A stretch of 64,000 nt of DNA from Lucinisca nassula (taxonomy: Eukaryota > Mollusca > Bivalvia > Lucinida > Lucinidae), in the NCBI GenBank assembly GCA_963580285.1, contig CAUZLF010000241.1, positions 203,307 to 267,306 of the forward strand, given 5' to 3'. Positions 946 through 63,711 of the stretch are shown here, one piece after another. How positions within the stretch are numbered: the stretch's first letter is position 1; each line of letters begins with the position of its first letter. The position numbers and the translations under genes are program-made. The notes beneath the pieces are model-generated. The model did not search any database and was not told the DNA's origin. It saw nothing but the letters and a program-made list of their open reading frames with translations.

Positions 946-1525
946 AAATAGAAGTGGAGGCAATGATCAGGAATCGATACAATCAACCCACATCTCCCAT
1001 CAGAGACACCAAAGGGAAAGACATACAAACATGAAACAACAGACCCTAATGGAAACACCAACAGCGGAAAGCCAAAAGGACAGTTACTTTCCCACAAAAT
1101 GGCCAATAGGCTATCCAAAATACAATAAAACAAGCGACACAAACACCCAAAGACATACCATAACAAAAATAAACCGCGACAGAAGAACCGCCCTGGAACG
1201 GTAAGCGGAAACGAACTCCACCGGGAGCCCAAACCGACCCCACGCGGCAACAATCGTCGCCCTTACTTCCGTCGCGATTTAGACAAACAATTTGTTCAGT
1301 ACGCATGAAGGCCTCCTAACTCATCAGTGCAACATCTCCGTGAACGAAAATAACCAAACAACCACAGAGATGAAACAACGGTGAGGACTCGACAGCAAAA
1401 AACCACTGAAATGATGGAGCAAAAGAAAATCAACAGTTAGACTCCGATGGGCCAGACCAGAGACAGAGCATCAGGCACCAACCAACATTACCTGGAATTA
1501 GATCTCTCTAATTCTCAATAAGCCT
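946..1525 (-). mobile_element. Naiad-type pLTR / 3' tail of fragment F1
   Basis: This follows directly after the TAA that ends the F1 coding remnant and is shared with the tails at 2908-3430, 5559-6294, 15955-16190, 17426-17573 and 52950-54531. Key shared stretches on the minus strand are GGTCGGGCCCATCGGAGTC near the start, ATGTTGCACTGATGAG in the middle, and GTTAATTGTATCGATTCCTG near the end. Penelope-like elements carry long terminal repeats (pLTRs), and I infer this role from its position and its occurrence without coding sequence elsewhere. Open frames here do not code. Confidence 0.7.
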
Positions 1526-2907
1526 TTACGTTGGAACCGTCATGGAATCTGAGGCATGACCCACCGGCGTGCAATTAAAGAGGGAAGCAAAGTTGTCAAC
1601 CGTGATTGGGTTAACTACCATGCATGCAGTCTGTCGTATAACATTTATGTTGTACCCAAGAGATTTAAGTCCAATATTGAATTTTGAAATTAAATCAGAA
1701 TGACGTCTATTAAATTTTGAAAAGGCTTTGCGTAGTTTATGGTACCGATAACCCTGATTAAGGAGTTTAGCCGTTAATAATTTATTACGAGTGTTGAAGT
1801 CAGTAACATGACTACACACTCTAGCAAATCGAATTAATTGCGAAATATAAACGCCATAGGATGGCGCACGAGGAACATCACCATCCAAAAAAGGAAAATT
1901 TACAATATCAAAATCAAAATTATCGCGTTTATCATAATTTTTGCACGAAACAAACCCATCTACAAAAGAAAGATGTAAATCCAAAAACGGGGCCTCGGTA
2001 TCAGAAGAATTTGCTTTATTTAACTGAAGTTCTGGGTGTAAATCTGACTGATCAAACCATCGAAATAAGTATTATCGATATTTAATAAATCATCCAAATA
2101 TCTAGAAGTGGAGCTAAAAGCTTCAATGATTTCAGGCTGGTTTTCAGCAGAAAGGGACGTCATAAAGTCTCTTTCATTACAAAACAAAAACAGATCAATT
2201 AGTAGCAATCGGAATACCCACAACTTGTCAAAATAACTTAGTACCAGTGAGAGCTTCACACACTCTCTGACATGACCATTAAGTATAATTTCTGTGCTCT
2301 TCAGAAGTGAAAAAAAGCATTTCTTACATTACATGCAAGATAGAGGGAGTCTTCCCTATGAAATGTCCATTCAAATAAATCATTAAGTTTTTCTTTTATA
2401 AGATTATGAGGAAGTGTAGTGTAAAGGGTGGACAAATTATAAGTAGACAGACTTGAAGCACGAAAACGCCTGGATTTCAATTTATTCAAAACTTCATTAG
2501 AATTTTTTATAGACCAAAACAGATTTCTACCTGATCTTTCGAAGACTTTGTCGCAATATTTTATCACATGATTTTTGATGGCAGTAAAACTTGAAGTTAA
2601 TAATTTGGAGAGTTCAGTGGTGGCACAAGAGCTTGAATTTGCAATAAACCGTGCTTTGTATGGTCTTTTATGAACTTTAGGCAACCAATATAACGTAGGA
2701 AGCTTGTCTTGGCCTTCTGTAACACAGACAGCAAACTTGGTGACTGAATGACAAATGTGGTCATCAACTAAAGCCCTCTCTACAGCTAAAGGCTGAAGTT
2801 CATAGGCCTTAGTACCACCAAGTTCTTGCTGAAGAGTGTTAACATAATGAAGCCGTCAACGACCACATTGTTAGCGGCCTTATCAGCTGGAGTCAAAACA
2901 AACTTCG
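1526..2907 (-). pseudogene. Naiad-type Penelope-like element F1, C-terminal/RT part
   Basis: This is a decayed reverse-transcriptase remnant. On the minus strand, 2684-2301 encodes an RT N-terminal region (KVHKRPYKARFIANSSS, then STYNLSTLYTTLPHN, matching motif A). The frame then breaks, the catalytic-core stretch is deleted or shifted (2020-2259), and 1984-1526 encodes the C-terminal end (NFPFLDGDVPRAPSYGVYISQ) with a TAA stop. Relative to the better copy F2 there are several frameshifts, a shortened palm region missing the GIPMG motif, and a deletion of about 40 codons near the C-terminus. A 4-bp deletion near 2873 disrupts the frame next to a TGA that F2 also has. The upstream part continues at 3431, beyond an inserted pLTR. 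Confidence 0.75.
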
Positions 2908-3430
2908 GTCTCTGGTCGGGCCCATCGGAGTCTAACTGTTGGTTTTCTTTTGCTCCAGCATTTCAGTGGTTTCTTGCTGTCGAGTCCTCACCGTTGTCTC
3001 ACCTCTGTGGTTCTTTGATTTTTTGTGTTCACGAAGATGTTGCACTGATGAGTTAGGAGGCCTTCATGCGGAGTGTATTTGTCTAAATCGCGACGGAAGT
3101 AAGGGCGAGGATTGTGGCCACGTAAAATCGATTTAAGACCCCCCCCGCCTCCCCAGTGGAAATCTTTCCACTGACCGTTCCAAGGCGGTTCTTCTGTGAT
3201 GGTTTATTTATGGTGTTGTTTGTTACTGACTGTGTGTATCACTTGTGTCTTTTTATTTTGGATGGCCATATGGCCATTTTGTGGGAAAGTAACTGTCCTT
3301 ATGGCCTTTCTTTGTTTAGGTTTCCATTTTGTTCTGGTCGTTTAATGTTTGTGTTTCTTTCCCTTTGGTGTCTTTGATGGGTGGAGTAAGTTAATTGTAT
3401 CGATTCCTGATCTTTGTTTTACTTCTACTT
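2908..3430 (+). mobile_element. Naiad-type pLTR inserted in inverted orientation inside F1
   Basis: In F2 the coding sequence AAACAAACTTC runs directly into TTATGAAATTC (about 7845-7860). In F1 those two points are separated by this 0.5-kb block, which matches the element's own tail on the opposite strand. It begins partway into the tail (GGTCTCTGGTCGGGCCC) and ends at the usual terminus (GTTTTACTTCTAC). It is therefore a 5'-truncated solo tail nested in F1. The open frames at 2826-3377 on the plus strand are shadows. Confidence 0.75.
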
Positions 3431-4435
3431 TCCTATGAAATTCTTAGATACCTAGTTTAAGGTGACGTAAGGACGTGTTAGGTTCAGGAGGTAATAAGTT
3501 CGTATTTTGCGAATAAAAAGAAATGCGTTTGTTCACTAATTTCAGAATGCTAAGTTTCCATTCCTTAAGAGCTTTATGCTCAACATACTCTCGTTTACAC
3601 CATCGATTACCAAATTCATTCAAGGCTGCAGCGATTTCATCTCTACATTTATTGAAATCAATTTTAGAAGGAAATCGATATTTCGGTCCTTTACATATTA
3701 TATTACGTATCCTAGAATCAGGGATATTTTTTAAATTGCCAGTAATAATATGATCAGCAGCAGGATAGCAATATACTGAATCTTTACAATCACATGTATC
3801 AGGTGTGTTAGTGTCAATATCAAGATCAGAAACAAGTTTATTGAAATTAAAAATGATAGATCCAACAGGTTTATTGTATTTATGACAAATTATGGGTGTT
3901 TCAGTATTTTGAAAATAAGCAGGAATGGATGAAATAACCGAATTTTCCGGAAGATACTAGGTAAATCTATAAAATCCAAACCCTTATTAATGAAGGATAT
4001 TTTGATGTAATGAGATTTGTGATTAATTTCAGAATCGATGAAAGGACGAAGAGCATGCTGAGTATAACCTCTAGTTAAAAGAGCAGCGTCGTATATAACT
4101 GATTAGAACAATCTTAGAATTTATTCGCCACGGTATCCAGAATCCGTAATACAGAAAAGGGTAATGAACTTAGAAAAGCTAGCATTGCGGGGCGTCCATG
4201 ATTCAATAATATTTTGGACAGTCACTTCAGTCTGGTATTGTTTCTTTTAAAAGCACGTAATGTACGTTTATAATTACCATTTTTTCTGGTGCCGTGCGAT
4301 CTAGTTTTACGCTTTCGGCTGTCCAGAAGCGAGAACATATCAAAGTCGGGCATTTTTGATAAATTACCCTCATGATAAATGTTGTCATTAAAGCCAATGG
4401 AAAATGTGTCTGTAATAAGGGGGTCTTTCAAGGTA
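3431..4435 (-). pseudogene. Naiad-type element F1, upstream part
   Basis: This continues F1 beyond the nested tail. On the minus strand the order is FNDNIYHEGN (about 4390), FSLLDSRKRKTRSHGTRKNG, NNTRLK, an in-frame TGA at 4222-4224, then the same frame with ILLNHGR and later conserved blocks (TRGYTQH, FINKG, FNFNKL, CDCK, KIDF). Extra stops and frameshifts follow, for example a TAA where F2 has TAC in the ANKFYD block. The 5' end is lost near 4435, so the GIY-YIG nuclease core is missing. The TGA is shared with F2. Confidence 0.7.
4222..4224 (-). other. In-frame TGA, possible selenocysteine codon, F1
   Basis: The TGA lies between NNTRLK and LS-ILLNHGR and is identical in place to the TGA at 8638-8640 in F2. 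The surrounding frame is open on both sides. See the finding on UGA recoding. Confidence 0.5.
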
Positions 4436-5558: not shown

Positions 5559-6294
5559 GTAGAAGTAAAACAAAGATCAGGAATTGATACAATTAACTTA
5601 CTCCACCCATAAAAGACACCAAAGGAAAAGAAATACAACATTAAGCGACCAGACCATAATGGAAACCTAAACAAAGGAAGGCCATAAGGACAGTTACTTT
5701 CCCACAAAATGGCCATATGGCCATCCAAAACCAAAAGACACAAGTGATACACACAGTAAGTAACAAACAACAACATAAATAAATCGCCATAGAAGAGCCG
5801 CCTTGGAACGGTCAGTGGAAGATTTCCACTGGGGGGCTTAAATCGATTTTACGTAGAAGCCTCCGTGGTGCAGTGGTTACGCTACTCGCCTTGTAAACCA
5901 GGGATCGCAGGATCGATCCCGGGCTTCTCCAGACTTTCGGATGAGTCTTTAAACCGAGGTCCCGTCTCCGTATGACCTTAGCTGTTGGTGGGACGTAAAA
6001 CTAAATCTCACTCACTCGATTTTACGTGGCCACAATCCTCGCCCTTACTTCCGTCGCGATTTAGACAAATAATTTGTTCAGTCCGCATGAAGGCCTCCTA
6101 ACTCATCAGTGCAACATCTCCGTGAACACAAAAATCAAAGAACCACAGAGGTGAGACAACGGTGAGGACTCGACAGCAAGAAACCACTGAAATGCTGGAG
6201 CAAAAGAAAACCAACAGTTAGACTCCGATGAGCCCGACCAGAGACAGAGCATCAGGCACCAACCAACATTATCTCTCTAATTTTCAATAAGCCT
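5559..6294 (-). mobile_element. Naiad-type pLTR / 3' tail of fragment F2
   Basis: This is the tail following the TAA at 6295-6297 on the minus strand, colinear with 946-1525. It is interrupted by a tRNA-derived SINE at 5855-6016, flanked by the duplicated target CGATTTTACGT. Removing the SINE restores the usual tail sequence ...CGATTTTACGTGGCC. Confidence 0.72.
5855..6016 (+). mobile_element. tRNA-derived SINE, family C (tRNA-Thr-like)
   Basis: The head reads as a tRNA: it begins GCCTCCGTGGTGCAGTGG (A box TGGTGCAGTGG), the anticodon region is CTTGTAA (TGT, Thr-like), and GGATCGATCCC acts as the B box. A body of about 80 bp follows, ending GGTGGGACGTAAAAC and a (CTCA)n tail. The 11-bp target duplication CGATTTTACGT at 5844-5854 and 6017-6027 marks retroposition. 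Confidence 0.85.
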
Positions 6295-7795
6295 TTACGT
6301 TGGAACCGTCATAGAATCTGAGGCCTGACCCACCGGCGTGCAATTAAAGAGGGAAGCAAAGTTGCCAACCGTGATTGGGTTAACTACCATGCATGCAGTC
6401 TGTCGTATAATATCCATGTTGTACCCAATCTTTTTATATCGAAGAATGATTTTACGAAATTGGGTGCTGAAGTCATTGCGGTTATATATTTTTCTGAATT
6501 TATATACTAAGTCACCATAAAATTCGGGTTCCGATAGACCTTGTTGCAGAAGAGATTTAAGTCCAATATTGAATTTTGAAATTAAATCAGAATGGCGTCT
6601 ATAAAATTTTGAAAAGGCTTTGCGCAGTTTATGGTACCGATAACCCTGATTAAGGAGTTTAGCCGTTAATAATTTATTACGAGTGTTGAAGTCAGTAACA
6701 TGACTACACACTCTAGCAAATCGAATTAATTGCGAAATATAAACGCCATAGGATGGCGCACGAGGAACATCACCATCAAAAAAAGGAAAATTTACAATCT
6801 CAAAATCAAAGTCATCGCGTTTATCATAAATTTTGCACGAAACAAATCCATCTACAATAGATAGATGTAAATTCAAAAAACGGGGCCTCGGTATCAGAAG
6901 AATTTGCTTTATTTAACTGAAGTTCTAGGGGGTAAATCTGACTGATCAAACCATCAAAATAGGTATTATCAATATTTAATAAATCATCTAAATATCTAGA
7001 AGTAGAGCTAAAAGCTTCAATAATTTCAGATTGGTTATCAATGGAAAGCGACAAAATGAAGTCTCTTTCATAACAATACAAGAACAGATCAGCCACAAGA
7101 GGTGCGCAATTAGTACCCATCGGAATACCCACAATTTGTCTAAATAACTTAGTACCGAATCTAATATAAATATTGTCAAGTAGAAAGGTGAGTGCATCAC
7201 ACACTTTCTGACATGACCAAAGTGTATAATTCTTATGCTCTTTAGAAGTGAAAAATGCATTTCTGACATTACATGCAAGATAAAGAGAATCTTCTCTGTG
7301 AAAAGCCCATTCAATTAAATCATTAAGCTTTTCTTTTATAAGATTATGAGGAAGTGTAGTGTAAAGAGTGGAAAAATCGTAGATAGACAGACTAGAAGCA
7401 CGAAAATGTCTAGATTTCAATTTATTTAAAACCTCATTCGATTTTTTTATAGACCAAACCAGATTTCTTCCTGATCTTTCAAAGACTTTATCACAATATT
7501 TAATTACATGCGTTTTAATAGCAGTAAGACAGGAAGTTAATAATTTAGAAAGTTCAGTGGTAGTGCAAGAGCTAGAATTTGCAATAAACCGTGCTTTGTA
7601 AGGTTTTTTATGAAGTTTTGGTAACCAGTATAGCGTAGGAAGCTTGTCTTGGCCTTCGTTAACACACACAGCACACTTGGTGGCTGAAAGACAAACATGT
7701 TTATCTACTATAGCTCTCTCTTCAGCTAAAGGCTGAAGTTCATAGGCCTTAGTACCACCAAGCTCCTGCTTAAGCGTGTTAACATAGTGGAGCCG

Positions 7796-7798
7796 TCA
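7796..7798 (-). other. In-frame TGA, possible selenocysteine codon, F2
   Basis: It follows ADKAANNVVVV and precedes RLHYVNTLKQEL in the same frame, which continues through the RT. From what I recall of related invertebrate PLE proteins, Cys occupies this position (VVVV-C-RLHY). F1 keeps the TGACGG string here, next to a 4-bp deletion. Confidence 0.55.
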
Positions 7799-8637
7799 CA
7801 CAACGACGACGTTGTTAGCGGCCTTGTCTGCAGGGGCCAAAACAAACTTCTTATGAAATTCTTGAATACCTAGTTTAAGATGACGTAAAGACGTCTTGGG
7901 CTTAGGAGGTAATAAGTTAGTATTTTGAGAATAGAAAGAAATGCGTTTATTCACTAGTTTTAAAATGCTAAGTTTCCAGTCCTTAAGGGCTTTATGCTCA
8001 ACATACTCTCGCTTACACCATCGATTACCGAATTCATTCAAGGAAGCAGCGATTATATTCTACATTTACTGAAATCAATTTTAGAAGGAAACCGATATTT
8101 CGGTCCTTTAGAAATTATATTCCTTATCCTAGAATCAGGAATAATTTTCAAATTGCCAGTAATTACATGACCAGCAGCAGGATAGCAATACTTTGAGTTT
8201 TTGCAATCACATGAATCAGGAGTATTAGTATCAATATCAAGATCTGAAACAAGTTTATTAAAATTAAAAATGATAGATCTAACAGGTTTGTTATATTTAT
8301 AGCAAATTATAGGTGTTTCAGTATTTTGAAAATAAGCAGGAATGGAAGAAAGCACCGATCTCTCACGGAAGATACTGGGCAAATCTATAAAATCCATACC
8401 CTTATTAATGAAGGATACTTTGAAGAAATGGCGTTTATGATTAATTTCAGAATCAATGTAATGACGGAGAGTATGCTGAGTATAGCCTCTAGTTAAGAGA
8501 GCCGCATCATATAACTGATGAGAACGATCGTAGAATTTATTCGCCTCGGTGTCCTGAAGACGTAAAACAGAAACGGGTAATGAACTTAAAAATGAAAGCA
8601 TAGAGTGGCGTCCATGATTTAATAATATAATTGACAG

Positions 8638-8640
8638 TCA
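8638..8640 (-). other. In-frame TGA, possible selenocysteine codon, F2
   Basis: It lies between NNTRLK and LSIILLNHGRH with no frame change; the open frame ending here and the one starting at 8601 are in register. F1 has TGA at the same place (4222-4224). Confidence 0.55.
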
Positions 8641-9024
8641 CTTCAGTCTAGTATTGTTTCGTTTAAACGCACGTGATTTACGTTTAAAGTTACCATTTTT
8701 CCTGGTGCCGTGAGATCTAGTTCTGCGTTTTCGACATTCCAGGAGTGAGAAAATATCAAAGTCCGGCATTCTGGAAATATTACCCTCATGATAAATGTTG
8801 TCATTAAATCCCAGTGGAAAAGGGGTCCGTAAAAATTTAATCCATTTCAGTTCAGCTTCATGTCTTTTGATTATTTTGAATCTAGATGTAGAATTTGCAT
8901 CGTAATCAAGTTTTTCCACTGGTTGTATAACAATGTTATTTACAGAATGACCTGTACGTCGAAAGTGACGGTACAAGAAAGTGTCAGTTTTAAAGCCATT
9001 TGAATTTGCTTTTAGAATTCCCAT

Positions 9025-10744: not shown

Positions 10745-11065
10745 ATGAAAGACCCCCTTTAACCCATTTTAATTCAGTTTCATGCTGTTTAACAATTTTA
10801 AACCTGGCTGGATAATTTAAATCATAATATTTTTTCCACTGGCTGTATAGAATTATCTTTAATAGAATGGCCTGTACGTCTGAAATGACGGTACAAGACA
10901 GTGTCAGTTTTTAGGCTTACTATTTCTACGATAGTGTTCGTTAAATCGTGTTTTTAACATGCGATTTGTTTGCCCGACATACTGCATTTTACAATTTGCA
11001 GTATGTCAGGTTATCACATATATCAAATCCGTAGACTTACATGTCAAATCGGACATGTAAACTAC
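10745..11065 (-). pseudogene. Naiad-type fragment F3 with GIY-YIG nuclease core
   Basis: Minus-strand translation gives LIYVIT, then TGA, then HTANCKMQYVGQT and LKTRFNEHYRR. After a frameshift it continues with DTVLYRHFRRTGHS, QPVEK and HETELKW. QYVGQT with a downstream Arg in LKTRF is the YIG half of a GIY-YIG nuclease, and LIY sits where GIY is expected. The Cys and the TGA between them fit the zinc-finger-like Cys pair seen in PLE nucleases. F3 overlaps F2 in element coordinates (both have YRHFRRTGHS), so it is a separate copy. It retains the nuclease core that F1 and F2 have lost. Confidence 0.72.
11006..11008 (-). other. In-frame TGA at a Cys-like position in GIY-YIG core, F3
   Basis: VIT-TGA-HTANCKMQYVG: the TGA lies four residues before a Cys, between the GIY-like and YIG-like motifs, where a metal-binding Cys is expected. 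This is a third possible selenocysteine site for the family. Confidence 0.45.
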
Positions 11066-11788
11066 AAAAAAACCTCTACCGTTTACAGATAAGTTTGTAG
11101 TGTATTAATGACTGAAAATAGTTCGAGAAATTATCAACCAGCGTTAAAGTCGTAAATCAGTGAATGCAGAGGATTATATATATTCGTGCCACTTTGAGCA
11201 GACGTCTTTTCTTAACCAGAGGTTTGAATCATGAAAACTAGCGCTTGAAAGAAAGGTTTTGCCGGTTTTCCATGTTGTTAAAAATAGCTGCGCATTGAGC
11301 TACTTCCTGAATCTAGAACAGTTATTATTATTATTACCACACAGTGTACAAAGGTTCACAAAGTACAAATAACTATATAGGTGAAGCAGTAGCTAAGTAC
11401 AGGACATTTAGTAATCCAGCAGAAGTTTCACTGAACCTGGATTTGCGGTGTATACAAAATATTTTGATATATTTTGAAAGCTGAGATCTTCTACAGTAAG
11501 AATCCGCTTGCTGCCATCTTGTCACCCTTGGGCATTTCCAAGAAATTAAGATGGCGTCCAAGATGGTCGACAGAATAGAAAAATTCAAACAATGTACTTA
11601 ATACACTGGTTGCCCATCTGTTAGAACTGCAAATCTACATAAGACATCAAATATTTTTTTTTATTTTAGGCCATTTAAGATATTTTCCGCTGAGTGTTTT
11701 ATATTTTATCGTTCCGTGGTGTTATGTACGTTACAAAATATTAAAACCCCCACAAAATCTTCATTCTCACCTTCATTTGTTATGCTTC
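11066..11788. other. Unassigned DNA
   Basis: I see no recognisable gene or repeat apart from short simple-sequence stretches such as TTATTATTATTA near 11320. Confidence 0.35.
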
Positions 11789-37546: not shown

Positions 37547-38907
37547 ATGGACAAAATCTGGCATCGTGGTGTCATCAAGTACCTCCATAAAAATGGGTTA
37601 GCTCCTAAGGGCATTCATGCCGATATGGTTGCTACATTAGGGGATGATGCTCCTTCGTATGCAACCGTGAAAAGGTGGGCAGCAAATTTTAAGATGGCAA
37701 AGACAGCCTTGAAGATGATGACTGGTGTGGACGACCCACAACGGCAACAACTGAGGAAACCATCAGCCAAGTGCACAGGGCCGTGATGGATGACAGGCGT
37801 TTAACTGTGAATCAGTTAGCTAACATTGTTGGCATCTCCCGTGAACGAGTAGAGAACATTCTACACAGTTTGTTTGTTTGATATGAGGTTTAACGTCCCC
37901 ATCAACACTGTAAAGGTCATTTTGGAGACGTTGCTTCTAATTTTGTGGGACTTTTACCCGACATTGACATGAAATGACATCTCAAGCCCTGTCGCCCAAT
38001 GAAACCAATAGGGTTTATTAGCATGGACGGTCCGCCTCGCACCGCAGTTCCTGGACAGGCTTAGATCCTCTAAGCGGTTTACCACTACTAGTGTGCGAGC
38101 CAGATTCAGCTCTGCGTGGAAGCATCGTGCAGCCCATATATTTCTTCAAGCCCCTATGGGCGGGGGCCGATTCTACACAGTGAATTAGGAATGTCGAAGG
38201 TTTCCGCCAGATGGGTGCCACGGCTTTTGACGCCTGACCAAAAGTTGACCAGACTGAACCTGTCACAAGCGAACTTGGCTATTTTTGAAGCAGACCAAGA
38301 TGGTTTTCTTGACCGTTTTGTCACTCAGGATGAGTGTTGGATTCATCACTTTGAGCCACAGACCAAAAGACAATCCATGCAATGGAAGCACCCTGGCTCA
38401 CCCCCTCCAAGGAAGGCAAAGGTCGTCTCCTCTGCAGGGAAGGTGATGGCATAAGTGTTCTTGGATGCCAAGGGCATAATATTCATAGATTACTTTCAAA
38501 AGGGCAGAACAATTAATGGGGAGTATTATGCAGATCTGCTAAAACAATTGCGAAAAGCAATTAAGGCTAAACGACCCGGAAAATTGACATAAGGGGTCTT
38601 GTTCCACCAGGACAATGCGCCTGCTCATAAATCGGTTGTCGCAATGGCTGCTGCGCATGCCTGTGGCTTCACACTTGTCGATCACCCTCCGTATTCACCT
38701 GATCTAGCTCCATCAGATTATTTCCCGTTTCCAAACATGAAAAAGCACTTGGCTTGGCAGCATTATCGGTCAGGCGAGGAGGTGATAGCTTCTGTGGAGG
38801 AGTTTTTCAGGGACCAAGATGAGACCTTCTATACCACTGGGATTCAAGGACTCCAGCATCGCTGGAGGAAGTGTGTGGACAGGAAGGGAGACTATGTTGA
38901 AAAATAA
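37547..38907 (+). pseudogene. Mariner transposase, DD34D, broken
   Basis: The N-terminal DNA-binding region starts MDKIWHRGVIKYLHKNG. After the break come QLANIVGISRERVENIL, then TQDECWIHHFEP (first Asp), FHQDNAPAH (second Asp) and PPYSPDLAPSDY (third Asp). I count 34 residues between the last two Asp, the mariner signature. Damage: a 1-bp deletion near 37711, the SINE insertion at 37869-38169, and two in-frame TAA codons (near 38452 and 38590). The end VDRKGDYVEK-TAA is intact. No active protein can be made from this copy. The low number of lesions suggests fairly recent activity. Confidence 0.92.
37869..38169 (-). mobile_element. SINE-like retroposon, family A, inside mariner
   Basis: A 301-bp antisense copy with a perfect 11-bp target duplication ATTCTACACAG at 37858-37868 and 38170-38180. 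Removing it and one duplicate restores the transposase frame across ENILH-SELG, which gives the element's exact ends independently of alignment. Confidence 0.92.
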
Positions 38908-52722: not shown

Positions 52723-52949
52723 CCCGCTTTTGAAGTCAAATTACTAAACGCACTGGATGGTCGATTGTCCCTGCGTTTAGGCTGGAAAAGGGATCCTAAG
52801 CTTGAACCCAATTCGCTGAACCCTTAATTCGATCAGAGGAGATTCTGATGAACCGCCGTATTCGATTGCGACTGATCCCAGCTTTTGTGAGAATAGTTAC
52901 CACCCTGGTCTTACAGTGTTTCTAGCTTAAGGTTTTAGAGAATTTAATT

Positions 52950-53275
52950 TTATGTAATGCTTGTTGGTGCCTGATGCTCTGTCTCTGGTCGGGCCCATCG
53001 GAGTCTAAATGTAGTTTTTCTTTTGCTCCAGCATTTCAGTTTCTTCTTGCTGTTGAGTACTCAACGTTGTTTCATCTCTGTGGTTGTTCTCGGAGATGTT
53101 GCACTGATGCGTTAGGTGGCATTCATGCGGATTGTTAAATCGCATTGCGGGCGCGTAAAATCGATTTAAGGCCCCGCGGTGCGTCTGTTTTGTTCTTATA
53201 CTTCATCGGCATGTGTATGTCGCTGGTGTCATTTTGGTTTTGGATAGCTGATTGCCCTTGTTCACAGCCGGCCAA
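52950..53275 (+). mobile_element. Naiad-type pLTR, 3'-interrupted
   Basis: TTGGTGCCTGATGCTCTGTC, GGTCGGGCCCATCGGAGTC, GAGATGTTGCACTGATG and CGTAAAATCGATTTAAGGCC. No coding part is attached, so this is a solo tail. Confidence 0.72.
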
Positions 53276-62083: not shown

Positions 62084-62840
62084 AAGTTCAGTCATTTTCA
62101 AAATATTTTTTGAAGAAAACACAACCTGTCACCCCTAAATTTTGAAATGGACTCCTGCTATATATAAGGAGGAAGATTCCATGGGGTACTGAAAGTGGCT
62201 AAAGCAAATAATAATTATGATCGATGTAACGGTCTATTTCCCTGTTCTTGTTTTCATTTTTCGGAGACACTGTAATATTTTGAGGTATGATGACAAGTTC
62301 TGCAACGGATTGGCAAGTATTTTTTTCTCCAAATACTCCGGTTTGCGGCCAAATCCAATTAATGATCAGCTCAAACAAGTCAAATAGTATAAAAATGCCG
62401 AAAATCCAAAACCACCACAAAAGTTGTAAACGCACTGCATAATTACGTTTCGAAGGAGAACATTTTCCAAACTGTTATCTTTTGCTGCGCAATGTGGCCG
62501 TCAGAACAAGAAATCGATACCACCCGCAGCTAAATGAGTTTTGTTGTCGGGTGTTATATATACTACAGGTACGTTTACGAGTTGATATATATTCTTATCT
62601 TGAAGTTAAATACGCTCTTGTGCTAACCGACACAAGGGAGACTACCGTGAAACCCCATATATATATAATCGCTACAAAACCGTGTTGCTAGCCAACAACC
62701 TAGGGAAAGTAAACTCGATGCCCTGAATCCACTGCAGGGCATGAGAAAATGCGGGGTGTTATGAACACCCCGCAATTTTTTCACACCCCACAAAAAAGGT
62801 TTTATATAGAAAAACACCCCGTATCTGGCAACTTTCTTAG

Positions 62841-62959
<119 letters not shown>

Positions 62960-63711
62960 GAAAGTTGCCAGATACGGGGTGTTTTTCTATATAAAACCTT
63001 TTTTGTGGGGTGTGAAAAAATTGCGGGGTGTTCATACCACCCCGCATTTTCTCATGCCCTGCAGTGTATTCAGGGCATCGAGTTTACTTTCCCTAGGTTG
63101 TTGGCTAGCAACACGGTTTTGTAGCGATTATATATATATGGGGTTTCACGGTAGTCTCCCTTGTGTCGGTTAGCACAAGAGCGTATTTAACTTCAAGATA
63201 AGAATATATATCACCTCGTAAACGTACCTGTAGTATATATAACACCCGACAACAAAACTCATTTAGCTGTGGGTGGTATCGATTTCTTGTTCTGACGGCC
63301 ACATTGCTCAGCAAAAGATAACAGTTTGGAAAATGTTCTCCTTCGAAACGTAATTATGCAGTGCGTTTACAACTTTTGTGGTGGTTTTGGATTTTCGGCA
63401 TTTTTATACTATTTGACTTGTTTGAGCTGATCATTAATTGGAGTTGGCCGCAAACCGGAGTATTTGGAGAAAAAAATACTTGCCAATCCGTTGCAGAACT
63501 TGTCATCCTACCTCAAAATATTACAGTGTCTCCGAAAAATGAAAACAAGAACAGGGAAATAGAGCGTTACATCGATCATAATTATTATTTGCTTTAGCCC
63601 CTTTTAGTACCAAGTGGAATCTTCCTCCTTATATATAGCAGGAGTCCATTTCAAAATTTAGGGGTGACAGGTTGTGTTTTCTTCAAAAAATATTTTGAAA
63701 ATGACTGAACT

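Follow-up and report, generated by a model that had tools for sequence, protein, structure and literature searches.

The 64-kb window, the whole stretch of DNA analysed here, contains copies and fragments of what is best read as a Naiad-type Penelope-like retroelement (PLE; Table 1). F2 comprises the rest of the predicted GIY-YIG region, the CxC linker, the reverse transcriptase (RT) and the C-terminus, and over 2977 bases (8991-6016) it is 98.8% identical to L020, an F2-family copy in the same genome. The two in-frame TGAs attributed to F2 in a preliminary description of this DNA are present on the minus strand, in the contexts NNTRLK-U-LSIILLNHGRH (8640-8638) and ANNVVVV-U-RLHYVNTLK (7798-7796). 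The frame around them, described as continuous, is interrupted by one frameshift near 8053, between the two TGA sites, and by a second near 6880, but homologous coding sequence does flank each TGA on both sides. Because these frameshifts break F2, it is unfit to be judged alone. F1 shares the first TGA (4224-4222) and at the second retains the string TGACGG next to a 4-base deletion, both as previously described; its other stops include TAA where F2 reads TAC and CAA. An inverted piece from the 3' end of the same element splits F1 at about 2906-3430, an arrangement that resembles the complex insertions of PLEs. A search of a phage collection with F2 gave zero matches.

Table 1. Retroelement features in the window, with positions counted from its first base.
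Feature	Position	Strand	Remarks
F2, 5'-truncated ORF of a Naiad-type PLE	6295..8991	-	two frameshifts, about 8053 and 6880
SECIS-like element of F2	6243..6322	-	Rfam SECIS_1 22.3 bits (cut-off 35)
UGA site C of F2 (codon 355, L020 frame)	8638..8640	-	context K-U-L, UGA then C
UGA site D of F2 (codon 636)	7796..7798	-	VVVV-U-RLHY, start of RT
F1, decayed copy of a second Naiad family	1526..4418	-	86% identical to F2
SECIS-like element of F1	1462..1553	-	straddles the stop at 1528-1526; complete helix III; SECIS_1 21.1 bits (cut-off 35)
UGA site C of F1	4222..4224	-	TGA
F3, N-terminal Naiad fragment	10758..11101	-	Cys at site A (11041-11039), UGA at site B (11008-11006)
3' tail fragment, same element type	52903..53134	+	3' half of SECIS present

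The AlphaFold model of the RT (pLDDT 87.3) had telomerase RTs as its 16 best Foldseek hits (best E-value 7.8e-10), a likeness that is expected of PLEs; the Pfam RVT_1 profile matched the same domain with just 14 bits (cut-off 29.6). A CxC linker (CDCKNSKYC, at codon 498) lies between endonuclease and RT. In Pfam searches for the GIY-YIG domain, the relatives P0070 and P0098 scored 25.4 bits (cut-off 22.6) and 21.9 bits, and P0250 itself had no match; in the alignment of this domain R219, E223 and N239 are invariant, and Y153 and G155 nearly so. The domain order of GIY-YIG, CxC and RT is what we take to be the mark of Naiad elements; judged by sequence and structural model, a Naiad-type PLE with a predicted GIY-YIG-type endonuclease region is the best reading of this element.

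The source genome of the window (2.93 Gb) provided 30 F2-family loci, fetched from the best 40 scored of 6289 candidates, and 30 F1-family loci, fetched from the best 40 scored of 5914 candidates. L020 reads through 1135 codons without TAA or TAG, and TGA is its sole internal stop type; after the first Met (codon 62), TGA occurs at codons 194, 205, 355 and 636 (sites A, B, C and D), and a fifth TGA, at codon 5, precedes this Met. The two UGAs claimed initially thus both stand, as sites C and D, but their number does not, since intact copies hold four, with codons 194 and 205 added. TGA had been anticipated at both of the original sites in most genomic copies, and it was found in 54 of 56 aligned stretches at site C (8638 in F2) and in 59 of 60 at site D (7796), counted over both families. 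Within the F2 family, TGA occupies site A in 12/12, site B in 13/13, site C in 25/26 and site D in 30/30 aligned stretches; the miss at site C is a TAA in a stretch of L028 with 72% identity, which was entered as a miss. The F1 family has TGA at site B in 15 of 17 cases (plus one TTA and one TAA), at site C in 29 of 30 (the exception is TGT) and at site D in 29 of 30, where the exception is F1 itself (L039). Its site A (n = 16) reads TGT in 14 copies and TGC in one, with an insertion in the remaining one; therefore one UGA position is Cys in the sister family.

Young copies were found in the same genome with proteins of relatives (P0122, P0005 and P0098) as queries in searches that scored the best candidates, and their stops were taken as tabulated. 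With P0122, the N-terminal matches listed (83 candidates scored) carry three TGAs each, except two with two, and no TAA or TAG. With P0005, all 71 full-length matches have one TGA and no other stop, and in 56 of the 71 the open frame comprises 780 residues; since 780 equals 1135 minus 355, the stop of these matches would lie at site C. With P0098, a Naiad protein with Cys, 38 of the 45 matches are of the selenoprotein type (36 with four TGAs, two with three, and no TAA or TAG), while of the remaining seven one is free of stops, four have stops of mixed type and two have TAA alone. We take the young four-TGA copies as a third, recently active set, because by eye none of its places is among the listed F2- or F1-family loci; these copies presumably have the same SECIS as the F1- and F2-family ends described below. 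Some copies of the four-TGA set (P0122 matches) follow each other on one strand with a spacing of 4151-4163 bases (C3:59979896, 59984059, 59988222 and 59992385). At C3:59979896-59993356 and C10:143989631-143998904 of this genome (G000), four-TGA copies are spaced 4163 and 4151 bases apart, as in head-to-tail arrays.

F1 and F2 are both decayed, and nonsense decay was the first alternative considered: the copies would be dead, and their TGAs inherited from one defective source mobilised in trans. Defective copies do seem to spread; 17 of the 30 F2-family loci have in common a +1 frameshift near codon 942, with a frame ending in FVQNLU, and a defective F2-family lineage carrying it has probably spread in trans. 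Since so many loci share this frameshift, sharing among 98% identical copies proves little alone, and it is the comparison between families that counts. Between-family Ka/Ks (F1-family stretches of more than 91% identity were excluded and treated as F2-like) is 0.215 from the first Met to site A, 0.146 from A to C, 0.159 from C to D and 0.178 from D to codon 960, with Ks of 0.4-0.7 across these segments; in the C-terminal part it is 0.378, at a Ks of merely 0.135. The low ratios, 0.15-0.22 up to codon 960, imply that the coding sequence downstream of every UGA was under selection, and the UGAs were retained in copies whose flanking coding sequence on both sides experienced purifying selection.

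The stop types agree with this, as the preliminary description had argued in stating that random decay gives mixed stops at unshared sites. Shared stop positions after the first Met are exclusively TGA, whereas stops elsewhere are of mixed types: stray stops in the F1 family comprise 68 TAA, 26 TAG and 26 TGA, scattered over 106 positions among 23,535 codons, and in the F2 family 14 (six TAA, six TGA and two TAG) in 28,109 codons, counted with stretches below 400 bases and F2-family stretches below 95% identity left out. By a rough estimate, the chance of nine neutral bases remaining unchanged is 0.005-0.03. Nonsense decay was rejected on the Ka/Ks values and stop-type statistics, and we regard it as very improbable.

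The residues that relatives carry at the UGA sites were taken from proteins P0001-P0128, drawn from capped match tables (120 of 321 matches in one of the protein tables). Among the matches listed, relatives of less than 44% identity have Cys at site A in 21/21, at site B in 21/21 and at site D in 66/67, with one Trp. At 44-65% identity site D is Cys in seven and Trp in eight of the matches listed, and above 65% it is Cys in 19 and Trp in eight; in this last group of listed matches, the sole protein covering both A and B has Trp at both, and six of seven have Trp in place of the first CxC Cys. Trp in these predicted proteins may stem from genuine TGG codons or from gene calling that translated UGA by code 4. 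In P0003, P0010, P0012, P0121, P0122, P0039 and P0042, Trp takes the place of conserved Cys, in some cases also of the first CxC Cys, a hint that other species may have additional Sec sites. The Naiads P0098 and P0070 share the CxC linker and RT with the present family and have Cys at A, B and D, where the present family has UGA; in contrast to the latter, the 44-48% identical P0098 matches in the same genome (n = 5) have no fixed TGA set (one without stop, four with mixed types).

The expectation of Cys in related families is therefore borne out at site D but not at the 8638 site (C). Of the 112 relatives that read through this position (best 120 of 768 matches), 80 have Asp, 16 Asn, five Glu, four Cys and two Val, with two gaps and one each of Trp, Gly and Tyr; three further relatives from the same best 120 end exactly before it, and the tally leaves out five of the 120 proteins that neither read through nor end in the query. 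Asp and Asn together account for 96 of these 112, so site C is no ancestral Cys position, even if a few relatives have Cys. In a model of the N-terminal part (mean pLDDT 67.9; blocks there 85-94), the site lies close to where a helix (residues 292-302) begins. That site C is no ancestral Cys position and separates the endonuclease region from the CxC-RT part would suit a division of labour in which A, B and D encode Sec, and the UGA at site C serves as a regulated stop, freeing the endonuclease part while some ribosomes continue to the RT; yet nothing seen sets C apart from the other UGAs, and Cys does occur there, in the four relatives just mentioned and in one F1-family copy (TGT), so that we consider this arrangement unlikely.

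A SECIS-like element lies at the end of the ORF. In F2 its core consists of AUGA (6312-6309), the terminal UAA (6297-6295) as apical AA, and UGAU (6254-6251); AUGA begins at the last Met codon, the UAA stop supplies the apical AA, and the distance from stop to UGAU is 40 bases in F2 and 52 in F1. The search for a SECIS near the terminal TAA, suggested in the preliminary description, thus did find a candidate, but one that straddles the stop rather than lying simply downstream, and that stays below the Rfam threshold: the SECIS_1 scores at the ends of F1, F2 and L029 (1404-1313, minus strand, 24.1 bits) are 21.1-24.1 bits, all under the cut-off of 35. A scan of the whole 64 kb (E ≤ 10) listed the F2 match as sole SECIS, with an E-value of 9.3; the F1 match was absent. 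Of 39 aligned 3' ends, 36 contain AUGA, UAAA and UGAU together, a count that includes F2 of the window also as L001 and credits L028 with UGAU (it failed only the stricter string CCUGAU); the ends of L026, L030 and L057 are without one or more of the core motifs.

In the minimum-energy folds of both L029 and F1, every part of the type II SECIS layout can be recognised (helix I, quartet region, helix II, AA bulge and long helix III). The F2 fold retains helices I and II, and its helix III is 12 bases shorter than that of F1; among the five pieces folded, the minimum-energy folds of L063 and L054 are without the layout. Folding energies of the five pieces are unremarkable (z from -1.5 to +1.4), and the F2 fold is weaker than that of most shuffles. 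In an alignment of ten rows, 91.7% of 240 cells form standard pairs, which 0 of 500 shuffles equalled, and five pairs are changed on both sides, which 2 of 500 shuffles reached; the structure tested was derived from one of the ten rows, which favours that structure. Since the rows were chosen from 34 distinct sequences, invariance within them is not general. SBP2 would presumably bind the SECIS-like element.

The host machinery for selenocysteine, which the preliminary description had asked about, is present in part. Two host tRNA-Sec genes have the anticodon TCA (80 and 77 bits), and a third match to the tRNA-Sec family is a tRNA-Ser according to ARAGORN. The family search matched in all 14 control genomes, in five of them over the cut-off, and because of these matches it is the anticodon call that carries weight. 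SepSecS has seven matches on C1 of the host genome, and eight host SECIS_1 matches over the cut-off lie elsewhere in the genome. These eight occur in parallel sets on C3, C6 and C7 (G000), as if a selenoprotein block had been triplicated. That the genome or lineage simply reads UGA as Trp would account for predicted proteins of relatives in which several of these sites are Trp; it is at odds with the tRNA-Sec(UCA), with the host SECIS elements over the cut-off, and with L020, where Trp codons are TGG and TGA occurs just five times in 1135 codons. We give this explanation next to no credence.

The base after UGA is C in 80 of 80 aligned F2-family site instances and in 71 of 73 F1-family TGA instances, compared with a C share of 18-19% at first codon positions; at the F1-family site A, a Cys codon, the next base is A in 15/15. 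UGA followed by C is a leaky stop context, and the nearly constant C, the Trp at these sites in several near relatives and the SECIS scores under the Rfam cut-off would all fit ordinary readthrough, in which near-cognate tRNAs read leaky UGA-C stops without selenium. Four successive leaky stops, however, would be expected to yield little full-length product, and such readthrough does not sit well with Cys at three of the sites in distant relatives, the exchange of one site with Cys between families, and the SECIS core motifs at the ORF end next to a host tRNA-Sec; it is accordingly improbable.

The retained TGAs, the Cys residues in relatives, the SECIS-like element and the host machinery support the original suggestion that this Naiad-type family uses selenocysteine, which is the probable amino acid inserted at the UGAs. 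Very probably, this Naiad-type PLE with its single ORF encodes a multi-selenocysteine protein, its four UGAs decoded as Sec by host tRNA-Sec(UCA) through one SECIS that straddles the stop. On this reading the UGAs at codons 194, 205, 355 and 636 would each depend on the tRNA-Sec(UCA) of the host and on a single type-II-like SECIS, which begins within the final codons and in which the terminal UAA serves as apical AA. At 194 and 205, Sec would stand in for conserved Cys of metal-ligand type that precede the GIY-YIG core and probably act as metal ligands; at 636, at a strand end at the start of the RT, it would likewise replace a conserved Cys, and at 355 it would occupy a variable position at the start of a helix. 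It is also conceivable, if doubtful, that ribosomes reaching the end unfold the SECIS over the stop, so that Sec decoding limits itself; that the UGA at codon 355 acts as a gate setting the ratio of free endonuclease to endonuclease-RT; and that transposition depends on selenium.

Naiad PLEs that encode selenoproteins have reportedly been described from clams and spiders, and are said to combine an N-terminal GIY-YIG domain, a CxC linker and an RT with several in-frame UGAs in an animal host. The present element is like these in its predicted domain set, multiple in-frame UGAs and animal host; it has four sites, one of them Cys in a sister family of the same genome, and a SECIS-like element over the stop. 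The kind of phenomenon has thus reportedly been described already for Naiads of clams and spiders, and the present case is well supported; less expected in it are the placement of the SECIS across the stop and the prevalence of residues other than Cys at site C in relatives. A text search of the literature returned no report of a retroelement selenoprotein among the matches listed, which says little about what is in print. According to passages in two reviews, the SECIS of fowlpox virus GPX4 lies inside the ORF (Mix et al., 2007, via PMC6769590 and PMC8310308), and the canarypox counterpart carries Cys, its SECIS surviving as a fossil (via PMC6769590 and PMC8310308). As portrayed in those passages, fowlpox GPX4 resembles the present element in that the SECIS is not confined to the 3' UTR; in this unrelated gene, however, it lies within the ORF, whereas the present one runs from the last codons past the stop.

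Should the UGAs indeed be read as Sec, the reverse transcriptase of a high-copy mobile element would be selenium-dependent, and the element could vie for selenium with the selenoproteins of its host. The exchange of Cys and Sec at one site between families of the same genome offers natural pairs for testing Sec in an endonuclease-RT.

Two other parts of the window contain repeat-like features. At 38092-38907, two ORFs resemble a broken mariner-type transposase, with the strings DNAPAH and HPPYSPDLAPSDY, which we take to be mariner-type transposase motifs. Near-identical ORFs at 62199-62474 and 63322-63597, on opposite strands around TA repeats, suggest a long inverted repeat.
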